In this document: in pieces, positions 8,763 to 36,921 of the stretch
Position numbering within the stretch: the stretch's first letter is position 1
Layout: each line of letters starts with the position of its first letter
DNA from: Venenivibrio stagnispumantis
GTDB lineage: Bacteria; Aquificota; Aquificia; Aquificales; Hydrogenothermaceae
Assembly (NCBI RefSeq): GCF_900182795.1
Contig: NZ_FXTX01000007.1
Coordinates: 1-64,000 of the forward strand
Direction of reading: 5' to 3'
DNA length: 64,000 nt
The notes under the pieces: model-generated
Databases searched by the model: none
What the model saw: only the letters and a program-made list of their open reading frames with translations
Told to the model about the DNA's origin: nothing
Translations under genes and position numbers: made by a program

Positions 8763-9695
8763 ATGGAATTTTTAGCAAAAGGAAAAAAAGAGCATAATAA
8801 CGATAATTTAAAAAAGTTAAGCATTGTTATAGCTTTAAATATTGCCATTGTTTTGGGACAGATAATATTTGGAATTATAGCAAATTCTTTATCTTTAATA
8901 ACAGATGCTCTGCATAATCTACAAGATGTTATATCTCTGGTTATATCTTTGATAGCTATTATCTTTATGAGAAAATCTCCTTCTTTGCATATGACTTTTG
9001 GATATCTGCGTTCTCCTGTTTTTGCAGCTTTTATAAATACATCTTTTTTAATAGGTGCAATATTTGTAATATTTATATCTTCTATAAATAGATTATTAAA
9101 TCCGGAGCCGGTAGAAAGTATATATGTTATTGTAGTTGGATTTTTTGCATTTGTGATTAATAGTATTTCTGCTTTTGTATTAAAAGAGCATAATCACCAT
9201 CACCATGAAGATAATCATCACCATCATCATGATGAAGATATTAATATAAAATCTGCTTACTTACATCTTATAACTGATGCCGGACTTTCTTTGGCAGTAG
9301 TTATAGGTGGTATTTTTATTTATCTGTTTAATCTGTATTGGATAGACCCAATTATCTCAATTTTATTTAGTGTATATATCTTTAAAGAGAGTATCCCAAT
9401 TATAAAAAAGAGCTTTTATATATTGATGGAAGGAGCACCTAAGCATATTGATATAGATAAAATAGTTAGGGATATTAAAAATTTACCGGCTGTAAAAGAT
9501 ATACATGATGTCCATCTTTGGGCTTTATCAGATAAAGATATTTATTTCTCAGCCCATATTATTTTAGAAGATATATCCATATCCGGCTTTGATGAAATTT
9601 TATCCAATATTGAAAAAATATTATCAAAAGAAGGTATAAACCATATCACAATTCAGCCGGAAAGTGAAAAATATAAATGCGAGATTTATTATTAA
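8763..9695 (+). CDS. Cation diffusion facilitator (ZitB/CzcD-like zinc exporter)
   Basis: 310 residues with six membrane segments and a cytoplasmic C-terminal domain. The metal site motifs are visible: H-x3-D in segment 2 (ALHNLQD) and H-x3-D in segment 5 (YLHLITDA). A histidine-rich loop of about 12 His lies between segments 4 and 5 (about 141-158), as in Zn-transporting CDF proteins. The C-terminal domain contains HDVHLWAL near 255. It probably exports Zn2+ (possibly Cd2+ or Co2+) in exchange for protons. It ends overlapping the convergent globin-PsiE gene by 4 bases. Confidence 0.92.
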   Translation: MEFLAKGKKEHNNDNLKKLSIVIALNIAIVLGQIIFGIIANSLSLITDALHNLQDVISLVISLIAIIFMRKSPSLHMTFGYLRSPVFAAFINTSFLIGAIFVIFISSINRLLNPEPVESIYVIVVGFFAFVINSISAFVLKEHNHHHHEDNHHHHHDEDINIKSAYLHLITDAGLSLAVVIGGIFIYLFNLYWIDPIISILFSVYIFKESIPIIKKSFYILMEGAPKHIDIDKIVRDIKNLPAVKDIHDVHLWALSDKDIYFSAHIILEDISISGFDEILSNIEKILSKEGINHITIQPESEKYKCEIYY

Positions 9696-10594
9696 CTTCT
9701 ATTTTCTTTATTTTTTATCAGCCAAAATACTACACCAAGGGATAAAATAACTGCTGAATAATAAAGTAGTTCTACACTTTTTTCTGCAGATAAAGAAGCA
9801 ATCAGTATTTTCCTTATCATAGCTGCAAGGGCAATTCCAATAAATACATATAAAGCAAATCCTCCACCTTTAAAATGTTTAATTTCTTCTGACATTAGCT
9901 CTCCTACAGCCCACATTATTAAAAGTGCACCGAGTAATGATAATATACCATATTCAAAATCAACCACTCCAAATGTAAGTTTGTATAAATCATAGAAAAA
10001 TAAAGCAAAAACTAATAATGCAACAATAATTAAAGCTACAAGAACTGCTATATCTAATATATCTGCAAATTTACGGGATATATAAAATAAAGATTTTTCA
10101 AATTTAGACATAACAGCAAGTTTTGATAATTCTTCTTCTCTGTAAGCCATAGTTATAATATCAAGGTTCATATCAAGTAATTTGCCTATGGATGCTACTA
10201 TCTGATTTCTTTCTTCACCACTTCCTATATGGTAATTTATCTTTTCTATAATAAATCTTCTTACAAAATTAAAACTTGCATTAACATAATGGGTAGGAAG
10301 CCCTATATTTACATGAACTTCTCCAATTTTATTTAATCTTAAAAAATATTCAAGGTTATAATTTCCTTCAAAAAGTTTTAAATACCATTCTTTAACTTTT
10401 ATTTTATGCCTGTTTATTATCTCTTCATTTTTCAAAAATTTAGAAGCTTCCGGAAACCTAAATATAAATCTATAAAATCTTTCTATAAATTCATCTGCAT
10501 ATCCCTGCATAATATCTTTTATACTTAATATTCTCTCTACATCTGTTTTATCAAATTCATAATCTTTTTTTATCTGTTCTATATTTTCTATCAT
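9692..10594 (-). CDS. Protoglobin-like sensor domain fused to PsiE-like membrane domain
   Basis: 300 residues in two parts. Residues about 1-165 look like a sensor globin/protoglobin: IGEVHVNIGLPTHYV (90-104) matches the F-helix pattern of globin-coupled sensors, with H94 as the proximal heme ligand. Residues about 172-295 contain four membrane segments and the PsiE-family signature GELMSEEIKHFKGG, followed by IALAAMIRKILI. A soluble heme domain would therefore report O2, NO or redox state to a membrane domain of unknown activity. The gene is coupled by a 4-base overlap to an upstream periplasmic protein. The domain identities are by motif; the fused function is unknown. Confidence 0.75.
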   Translation of the reverse strand: MIENIEQIKKDYEFDKTDVERILSIKDIMQGYADEFIERFYRFIFRFPEASKFLKNEEIINRHKIKVKEWYLKLFEGNYNLEYFLRLNKIGEVHVNIGLPTHYVNASFNFVRRFIIEKINYHIGSGEERNQIVASIGKLLDMNLDIITMAYREEELSKLAVMSKFEKSLFYISRKFADILDIAVLVALIIVALLVFALFFYDLYKLTFGVVDFEYGILSLLGALLIMWAVGELMSEEIKHFKGGGFALYVFIGIALAAMIRKILIASLSAEKSVELLYYSAVILSLGVVFWLIKNKENRS

Positions 10595-10944
10595 TGATAT
10601 TTCCTCATTTTTTCTCTTTCTTTTTGGGCTTTCATTTCATAATATTTTATTTTTAACTCCTGCTCTTGGGCTTTTAATTTTTCTTTTTCTGATTTTATTT
10701 TCTCTCTTAGCTTTTCTTTTTCTTCTTTTTCTTTGATTTTACATTCCTTTTTTTCTTCTTTTGTTTTTGCATTTTTTAAGCATTCTTCTGCTTTTTGTAA
10801 TATTTTAATCTGTTCTTGACGATAATAAATATCAAGCTCATTTTTCTTTTGTTTTATTTCTTCTCTTTTTTGGGATAGCTCATTAGCCATTGAGATTGAA
10901 AATTCTGCAAAAATCAATAACAAAATAGCTATGCCTTTTAACAT
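10591..10944 (-). CDS. Small secreted coiled-coil protein, function unknown
   Basis: 117 residues: a signal peptide (about 1-20, likely cut after SMA) and then an almost continuous Lys/Glu-rich helix with heptad character. Two cysteines lie in the middle (CLKNAKTKEEKKEC), possibly forming a disulfide that pins a helical hairpin in the periplasm. Its stop overlaps the start of the globin-PsiE gene, so the two are almost certainly made together. I do not recognise a family; low-complexity composition limits similarity arguments. Confidence 0.65.
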   Translation of the reverse strand: MLKGIAILLLIFAEFSISMANELSQKREEIKQKKNELDIYYRQEQIKILQKAEECLKNAKTKEEKKECKIKEKEEKEKLREKIKSEKEKLKAQEQELKIKYYEMKAQKEREKMRKYQ

Positions 10945-34869: not shown

Positions 34870-35116
34870 AAAAGCAGTTGCTTTAAAATATGAAAGGGAA
34901 AAGGATAATGCTCCTAAGGTTGTGGCAAAAGGTAAAGGTGTAATAGCAGAAAAGATTATACAAACGGCGAAAGAGAATGGAGTATATATAAAGGAAGATA
35001 AATATCTTGTAGAGATGTTATCTAATTTAGAATTATATGAAGAAATTCCGGAAGAGTTATATAAAGTAGTAGCGAAAATTTTTATATTTTTATATACACA
35101 AGTGAGGAGAGAATGA
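34856..35116 (+). CDS. FlhB C-terminal domain homologue (FlhX/YlqH-like)
   Basis: 86 residues that align with the cytoplasmic C-domain of FlhB: AVALKYEREKDNAPKVVAKG (7-26), then GVIAEKIIQTAKENGVYIKED and LSNLELYEEIPEELYKVVAKI. The N-P-T-H autocleavage site lies at the start of the FlhB domain and is absent here, so it is the post-cleavage fragment as a stand-alone protein. It overlaps the FliK-like gene by 14 bases and the PsiE-like gene by 4. It may modulate flagellar export or have been reused. Confidence 0.85.
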   Translation: MEELKKAVALKYEREKDNAPKVVAKGKGVIAEKIIQTAKENGVYIKEDKYLVEMLSNLELYEEIPEELYKVVAKIFIFLYTQVRRE

Positions 35117-35337
35117 AGGATAAAATAAAAAGCATTTTTAAAGATTTTAAATCTGGACATTTTAGATTTCATGGAGAAATAGGTAATTTTTTAGAACTAT
35201 TTGAAGATTTAATAGTTTTTTTACTTACATTATTATTATTTTATCTTAATTTAATAGCTATTTATGATTTGTTTACAGATTTAGTGAGCGGGAGTACTAA
35301 ATTTACAGAGTTAGTCCCAAAACAGATAATAGTATAG
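35113..35337 (+). pseudogene. PsiE-like membrane protein, N-terminal part, disrupted
   Basis: 74 codons: a basic N-terminus (MKDKIKSIFKDFKSGH), then a strongly hydrophobic stretch LIVFLLTLLLFYLNLIAIYD, ending at TAG. Downstream, in other frames, GAFIIISLNIAINVVLTIKE and VSILLSERY (about 35370-35460) resemble the second half of a PsiE-type protein. The break lies between about 35333 and 35370. It starts by a 4-base overlap with the FlhB-like gene. A short functional membrane peptide cannot be excluded. Confidence 0.5.
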
Positions 35338-35734
35338 AAACTCCTATATATTCCGGTAAATGAAAAGTAGGAGCTTTTATAATAATTTCCCTTAATATTG
35401 CTATCAATGTAGTTTTAACTATTAAGGAAGTATCTATTCTTCTTTCAGAAAGATATACAATCATAAGCCTGAATAACTCTGTTAATATAAAAATATATAA
35501 AAATTTAGGGACGGTTCAGTGGTGCCGTTGGGAGTTTCCCTGAAAAGTTCTTCAAAAAGAAGGACAAAATCTAAGGGGAGTTCCCGAAAGTCTGCAGTTG
35601 TCAATGATTGAGTATGTTTTTTGGCAACTGTTGACACCACTTATGTATTATCTTCCTAAATTTTGGTTTAGTAAGGATGTTTTAAGGAAGGATATAGCTA
35701 TAAGAAGAAGATTGAGAAAATTAAAAGAAAAAGG
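35338..35734 (+). other. Gene-poor stretch: decayed PsiE-like tail and possible element remnant
   Basis: 35338-35500 holds out-of-frame coding relics of the preceding gene. From 35517 to 35642 the base composition becomes more GC-rich, and the block is bounded by AGTGGTGCC (35518-35526) and the inverted GACACCACT (35633-35641), so it may be a mobile-element remnant. 35544-35738 contains an open frame (44 codons from ATG 35604, MIEYVFWQLLTPLMYYLPKF onward) with a basic C-terminus that I do not recognise; its stop overlaps the convergent response-regulator stop. Confidence 0.3.
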
Positions 35735-36427
35735 TTAATCTTCATCACAACTCCATCTATATCCTATCCCTCTAACTGTTTTTATGAATTTACCATAATC
35801 TTTTAAGCTATCTCTTAAATGTTTTATATGGACATCTATTGTTCTATCATACACATCTTTTTCTTCATTCCAAACATTATTTAAGATATAATCCCTTGAT
35901 AAAACTCTACCATTTGCAGTAATTAATGCTATCAATAATTTTAATTGTGTTGTGGTTATATTTAATTTTTCATTTTTTAATCTTACTTCAAATTTTTCTG
36001 GAATTATTTCCAAATCTTTAAATTTTATAGTAGGGGATTGGAGTAAAGTAGAATATTTATATCTTCTTAAAACTGTTTTTATTCTTGCTATTACTTCCCT
36101 TATAGAAAAAGGTTTTGTTATATAATCATCTGCTCCAAGTTCTAATCCTACTATTTTATCTATTTCTGTTCCTTTTGCAGTAATCATAATTATCGGTATT
36201 TTTTCTGTATTTTTGTTTGATTTTACAATTTTACAAAACTCTAAACCATCTATATCCGGAAGCATAACATCAAGTAAAATTATATCCGGCTTTATATTCT
36301 TTAGTTCTTCAAGTGCCTGCCTACTGCTTAAAAAAGGCTTTACTTCATATCCTTCTTTTCTTAGATTATAAGTTAATAAATCATTTATATCCCTATCATC
36401 CTCAACAACAAAAACTAAATTTGCCAT
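35735..36427 (-). CDS. OmpR/PhoB-family response regulator
   Basis: 230 residues. The receiver domain (1-120) has acidic pocket D9-D10 (VVEDD), phospho-acceptor D53 (IILLDVMLPD), T82-A83 and K104-P105 (DYITKPF). The winged-helix DNA-binding domain (about 130-228) ends with the wing motif TVRGIGYRW. It resembles PhoB-type regulators of phosphate response. No histidine kinase is adjacent. The gene lies 2 bases after a PsiE-like gene, and in E. coli psiE is a PhoB target, which makes a phosphate link plausible. Confidence 0.92.
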   Translation of the reverse strand: MANLVFVVEDDRDINDLLTYNLRKEGYEVKPFLSSRQALEELKNIKPDIILLDVMLPDIDGLEFCKIVKSNKNTEKIPIIMITAKGTEIDKIVGLELGADDYITKPFSIREVIARIKTVLRRYKYSTLLQSPTIKFKDLEIIPEKFEVRLKNEKLNITTTQLKLLIALITANGRVLSRDYILNNVWNEEKDVYDRTIDVHIKHLRDSLKDYGKFIKTVRGIGYRWSCDED

Positions 36428-36429
36428 TT

Positions 36430-36852
36430 TTATCTCCTTTCTATATTAATTGGTGAAAATTTTACAGATAAAATTCTTATTAAAGTCAAAATTAACAATA
36501 CTATGGATAGATATAAACTATCTTCAAATTTCAATGAATGCTGATATAAACCTATTATTATCTCCCTCATTATAAATATAATCGTAATTTCGGTAATTGT
36601 AGTTATTTTTATTCGTTTATATTGGAAATATTCATTTATGCTTTTTATTATTTCAAGTAAGATAAATATAGAAAATGAAGAATTTATCAGTATATTAAAC
36701 ATATCTTTTGAATTTGGAAAAGATATATATAAATCTTTAAAAAGGTTAAATATAGCAAGTAATAATCCAATAGATAAAAATATTTCCAGTAGTAAGAAGG
36801 TTATATTTACAGCAGTATTTAGTATATTCAATTTTAAAACTAATTCTCTCAT
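36430..36852 (-). CDS. PsiE-like membrane protein
   Basis: 140 residues with four membrane segments. FILLEIIKSINEYFQYKRI (about 64-82), followed by ITEITIIFIMREIIIGL, matches the PsiE signature in which an acidic-aromatic amphipathic segment precedes a helix ending R-K/E-I-I. ATG 36852 is preferred over TTG 36858. It is probably cotranscribed with the PhoB-like regulator. PsiE function is unknown beyond phosphate-starvation induction in enterobacteria. Confidence 0.65.
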   Translation of the reverse strand: MRELVLKLNILNTAVNITFLLLEIFLSIGLLLAIFNLFKDLYISFPNSKDMFNILINSSFSIFILLEIIKSINEYFQYKRIKITTITEITIIFIMREIIIGLYQHSLKFEDSLYLSIVLLILTLIRILSVKFSPINIERR

Positions 36853-36921
36853 ACTCAATATTATATTAATATTTTGTTTAGGGAATATTAAGAATTGGTT
36901 AAAATTTTTTAATATTTTAAA

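Follow-up and report, generated by a model that had tools for sequence, protein, structure and literature searches.

A globin-PsiE fusion of the GsGCS type, with PsiE domains that outlive the globin or its heme ligands

The locus described here raises the question of what a sensory globin does when its polypeptide continues into a PsiE-type membrane domain, and whether such a fusion constitutes a signalling architecture of its own. Within the 64 000 nucleotides of Venenivibrio stagnispumantis DNA that were analysed (the window), a 300-amino-acid protein with an ATG start is encoded on the minus strand at positions 9692–10594. The protein combines a Protoglobin sensor domain at residues 4–155 (10130–10585, minus strand; PF11563, E = 1.4e-28, 100.4 bits versus a cut-off of 25) with a PsiE membrane domain at residues 182–297 (9704–10051, minus strand; PF06146, E = 6.9e-21, 75.1 bits versus a cut-off of 23.9). 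Both domains were also recovered in genome scans, and are backed by a fold match to 2W31 and by the helices of the structure model respectively. A globin followed by PsiE was what the original prediction had read from the letters alone, and both profile searches confirmed it well above the curated Pfam cut-offs. The best PDB and fold matches of the globin half were all globin-coupled sensor (GCS) globins, i.e. heme sensors, and as in other members of this family a non-globin C-terminal domain, here PsiE, lies in the same chain as the protoglobin; the N-terminal half is best interpreted as a sensory globin. Since the full-length fusion recurs at 32–69% identity in about 150 genomes, a chance juxtaposition is excluded.

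The closest structural relative of the window globin was 2W31 (36% identity; TM of 0.94 normalized to the target and rmsd of 1.7 Å for the globin half of the AlphaFold model), the globin domain of Geobacter sulfurreducens GsGCS (Pesce et al., 2009, as cited in PMC4476040 and PMC4686822), which, according to a review, signals to a transmembrane protein (PMC3500211). All 31 Geobacter-order proteins with 55–66% identity to the GsGCS globin run on into a PsiE-type domain, and in that of Geomonas oryzae (L060) both Protoglobin and PsiE were confirmed by Pfam; a scan of the genome collection with the GsGCS globin returned a single locus, also in Geomonas oryzae. The closest globin to GsGCS among the genomes examined shared 68% identity, so that the C-terminus of GsGCS is read here from close relatives (55–68% identical, carrying PsiE as the window protein does) rather than from the G. 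sulfurreducens gene record. The window protein, whose host belongs to a different phylum from that of GsGCS, aligns with the Geobacter-order proteins over its full length (residues 5–297) at 32–39% identity. Other GCSs, i.e. the kinase AfGcHK, the cyclases DosC/EcGReg and BpeGReg, HemAT and Vibrio RsbR, share the globin fold, Tyr-B10 and the proximal His but have soluble outputs (kinase, cyclase, chemotaxis or stressosome) and no PsiE.

The fusion is far from rare. A match was found in 57 of the 61 genomes surrounding that of the window, mostly full-length, and full-length fusions were identified at 47 loci in the order to which the window belongs. In the Geobacter order, 104 of the 141 genomes gave a match, about 100 of these being full-length at 32–39% identity. 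Among plasmid records no full-length relative was found. Sequence divergence of the globin half parallels that of the PsiE half (r = 0.82 over 5253 pairs). A long-established fusion should show this pattern, but shared descent by itself also lifts such a correlation. The suggestion that this locus represents a new signalling architecture must therefore be abandoned, as the close GsGCS relatives examined share it and it is widespread in two orders: globin-PsiE is the known GsGCS architecture, widespread and under-studied. The accompanying remark that no sensor with this output has been characterized still stands. The PsiE profile gave no match to PDB sequences, a fold search of the PDB gave no significant match to PsiE (matches to an Orai-channel fold, with an E of 0.25 and rmsd of 7–8 Å, were disregarded as weak), and no paper naming PsiE together with a globin-coupled sensor was found in the open-access literature.

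Three residues delineate the putative heme pocket. H94 (codon at 10313–10315, minus strand), located in GEVHVNIGLPTHYV and proposed from the outset as the proximal His, indeed aligns with the proximal His in each of the solved GCS globins compared (2W31, AfGcHK, DosC and Vibrio RsbR), which makes it the probable F8 ligand; this His is conserved in 40/47 proteins of the window's order and in all 56 Geobacter-order relatives. Y41 (10472–10474, minus strand) is Tyr-B10, in the column of AfGcHK Tyr45 and of DosC Tyr43, which in DosC/EcGReg stabilizes bound O2 (PMC5549716). H63 (10406–10408, minus strand) is a distal-side His at position E7, in the column of AfGcHK Leu68 and of DosC Leu65, the latter a heme-distal residue according to the title of Nakajima (2012; cited in PMC5549716). 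Tyr-B10, distal His and proximal His are all kept in 39/47 same-order proteins, and a distal His occurs together with the F8 His in 54/56 Geobacter-order proteins.

The position of the distal His differs between the two orders. GsGCS heme is bis-His coordinated by His66 (E11) and the His at F8 (PMC4476040, PMC4686822), its E7 column being occupied by Leu and the ligand His lying four residues later. The window protein shares Tyr-B10 and the proximal His-F8 with GsGCS, but its His is at E7 and its E11 residue is V67, so it lacks the E11 ligand His that typifies GsGCS. AfGcHK, DosC and Vibrio RsbR have His at neither position, and Leu or Val at E7 where the window protein has His. In the window's order, 40/47 proteins place the His at E7 and have no His at E11; 54/56 proteins of the Geobacter order show the opposite arrangement, with a His at E11 but not at E7. 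Both groups thus retain a distal His, at positions separated by one turn of the E helix, a difference that seems to be new here and that offers a clean spectroscopic prediction. By analogy with GsGCS, the ferric heme of the window's lineage may also be bis-His, through a different residue; H63 may either coordinate the iron or form a hydrogen bond with a bound ligand.

We consider it probable that the protein is a GsGCS-type sensor in which a cytosolic gas- or redox-sensing globin controls a membrane PsiE module. The N-terminal globin would lie in the cytosol and bind heme b on H94, and either a gas ligand (O2, NO or CO) or the heme redox state would alter the distal side (Tyr41-B10, His63-E7). 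The AlphaFold model of the fusion (mean pLDDT 84.6; pTM 0.52, the packing of the domains being uncertain) places the last globin helix (127–161) nearly continuous with the first membrane helix (164–207) and predicts four helices in the PsiE domain, each long enough to cross the membrane. The change could thus be passed along this near-continuous helix to a four-helix PsiE domain that would be the output, probably oligomeric and acting within the inner membrane. The lysines of the 236–246 loop and of the C-terminal tail would fit the positive-inside rule with both termini cytosolic. A natural fusion to a heme sensor would provide a handle on PsiE function, as the gas can be varied and the membrane followed.

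In an alternative that we regard as doubtful, the globin is itself the working part, tethered to the membrane by a PsiE domain that serves only as an anchor, and scavenges O2, NO or peroxide or carries electrons. The combination of Tyr-B10, distal His and proximal His does resemble that of redox-active hexacoordinate globins, and membrane-bound redox globins exist in C. elegans (PMC3520999); a bis-His pocket also has its precedent in a sensor domain, that of GsGCS (PMC4476040). What speaks against a mere anchor is the fate of the two halves in other lineages. In one of these (f3), Tyr41, His63 and His94 have been jointly replaced by non-ligand residues (Phe or another) in all six sampled proteins. 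Their PsiE half is 78% identical within the group and, compared with other members of the family, better conserved than the globin half (37% versus 28% identity). Further, within one genus (g11) the fusion is present at L043 (299 amino acids), but at L056 and L057 the same neighbouring genes flank a 144-amino-acid PsiE protein instead; PsiE is the only Pfam match of the L056 protein and tblastn detected no trace of a globin at this syntenic locus. Another apparently standalone PsiE (L058) was set aside as its gene lies at a contig end. Moreover, E232 (codon at 9899–9901, minus strand) and R261 (9812–9814, minus strand) of the PsiE domain are invariant in 103/103 fused proteins, which an anchor would not need. 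Since PsiE is retained where the globin or its heme ligands are gone, only the globin can be dispensed with; together with the invariant Glu and Arg, this argues that PsiE is the output and the globin its regulator. That PsiE outlives the globin is, as judged from these sequences, a new observation.

The f3 proteins also bear on a third account, in which the fusion is a heme-independent membrane stress protein and the globin a relic scaffold. The domain was indeed kept in f3 after the joint loss of Tyr41, His63 and His94, and transmissible stress-tolerance islands are known to carry genes for PsiE proteins (PMC7685784), but the heme-pocket residues are all conserved in the window protein and in most relatives at 32–69% overall identity, and we consider this account very improbable. 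The f3 globin is possibly a heme-less sensor or a domain with altered heme binding; its persistence without heme ligands counts to some extent against a purely sensory reading, as the globin may have a structural role as well. The six f3 proteins (L049–L053 and L055) all retain the His at window-protein position 102, which is invariant in the family. Loss of oxygen respiration, suggested by the absence of COX1 from f3, was rejected as a cause of heme-pocket loss, since f3 keeps a bd oxidase and the window genome, whose pocket is intact, has the same combination of missing COX1 and a bd oxidase. Terminal-oxidase content thus does not track the state of the pocket, a further point against the sensor reading.

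The family name of the membrane half implies phosphate starvation, and this name is the window protein's only link to phosphate, given its score of 20.8 bits versus the 222 bits of the NCBIfam PsiE equivalog cut-off. It shares with E. coli PsiE (PF06146) the PsiE membrane domain, above the Pfam cut-off, but differs from it in the N-terminal globin and in falling far below the equivalog cut-off; the phosphate regulation of E. coli psiE (PMC4415409) is accordingly not carried over to it. PsiE-family proteins are common (present in 6/14 control genomes). E. coli psiE is controlled by PhoB and CRP (PMC4415409) and, in Pseudomonas aeruginosa, PsiE is encoded with KefC in the transmissible stress-tolerance island TLPQC (PMC7685784), but neither the control nor the location assigns PsiE an activity.

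Two further psiE genes lie in the window. A standalone PsiE gene (36430–36858, minus strand) is separated by 2 bp from the downstream gene for a PhoB/OmpR-type response regulator (35735–36427, minus strand), a possible lead on PsiE regulation. Adjoining this pair, a psiE-like gene at 35113–35540 has its C-terminal half inverted (N-terminal half on the plus strand, 35113–35337; C-terminal half on the minus strand, 35300–35533), with 19-nt imperfect inverted repeats at 35298–35316 and 35471–35489. Flipping the segment of roughly 190 bp would restore one open frame of about 120 amino acids, and the copy represents either decay or an invertible switch.

The neighbourhood of the fusion gene in the window is not shared with its relatives. 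Its start overlaps by 4 bp (ATGA) a 117-amino-acid ORF (10591–10944, minus strand) with a hydrophobic N-terminus followed by a charged coiled-coil, with which it is probably co-transcribed, judging from this overlap. The original prediction had taken this ORF for a secreted coiled-coil partner; the coupling itself stands, the conserved partnership does not, as the ORF is specific to the window genome: the search of 40 related genomes yielded nothing beyond a single weak coiled-coil match, and Pfam gave no significant match. At its other end, the fusion gene terminates 4 bp inside a convergent cation-efflux gene (8763–9695), which encodes a His-rich loop at 9179–9240 (HNHHHHEDNHHHHHDED) that probably binds metal. 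Across the window's order no neighbour was conserved between genera, another point against the sensor reading, and contexts were mostly housekeeping or respiratory genes, e.g. a cbb3 oxidase adjoining three loci (L106, L107 and L109) and SCO1 upstream in two (L093 and L094).

In the Geobacter order, by comparison, the fusion gene was on the same strand and 8–89 bp behind hypD in 24 of the 40 loci examined, the usual arrangement being hypB-hypF-hypC-hypD-fusion-HAD phosphatase, a [NiFe]-hydrogenase maturation operon. The gene lay <200 bp from hypD in 49 of 104 carriers, a count obtained by pairing the coordinates of fusion and hypD matches by hand, and directly 3' of it. This linkage appears from the gene orders to be new here. 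It provides a concrete phenotype to test for a PsiE fusion, and could mean that the fusion senses O2 or redox state and tunes maturation or membrane insertion of [NiFe]-hydrogenase, the window's gene doing so at a distance. Carriers are also seldom without HypD (missing in 3/104 carriers versus 7/37 non-carriers; Fisher p = 0.003, confounded by incomplete genomes), and HypD is present in the window genome. Nevertheless, we find a hydrogenase role improbable: although found in many species, the linkage is confined to one clade and thus amounts to a single event kept by descent, while carriers in the window's order had no hyp gene next to the fusion and many of them had no detectable HypD. A more ambitious combination, in which the fused globin places a PsiE membrane effector under direct gas or redox control, the distal His has settled at E7 or E11, and the hyp-operon clade has turned the fusion into an O2 guard for hydrogenase assembly, is a long shot when taken as a whole.

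At L124, L126–L130, L132–L147, L149 and L151, where the fusion lies behind hypD, the next gene codes for a small phosphatase of the HAD family (PGP_phosphatase-like), and at one locus (L150) the HAD gene follows the fusion with no hyp genes present. One Geobacter-order genome (G181, contigs C39 and C146) carries two globin-PsiE paralogues, one hyp-linked and the other not. Lastly, the window's own genome contains a second protoglobin-like stretch (G000:C1:86087-86341; L006 and L039), sub-threshold and within a 687-codon open frame, which is possibly another globin-coupled sensor.
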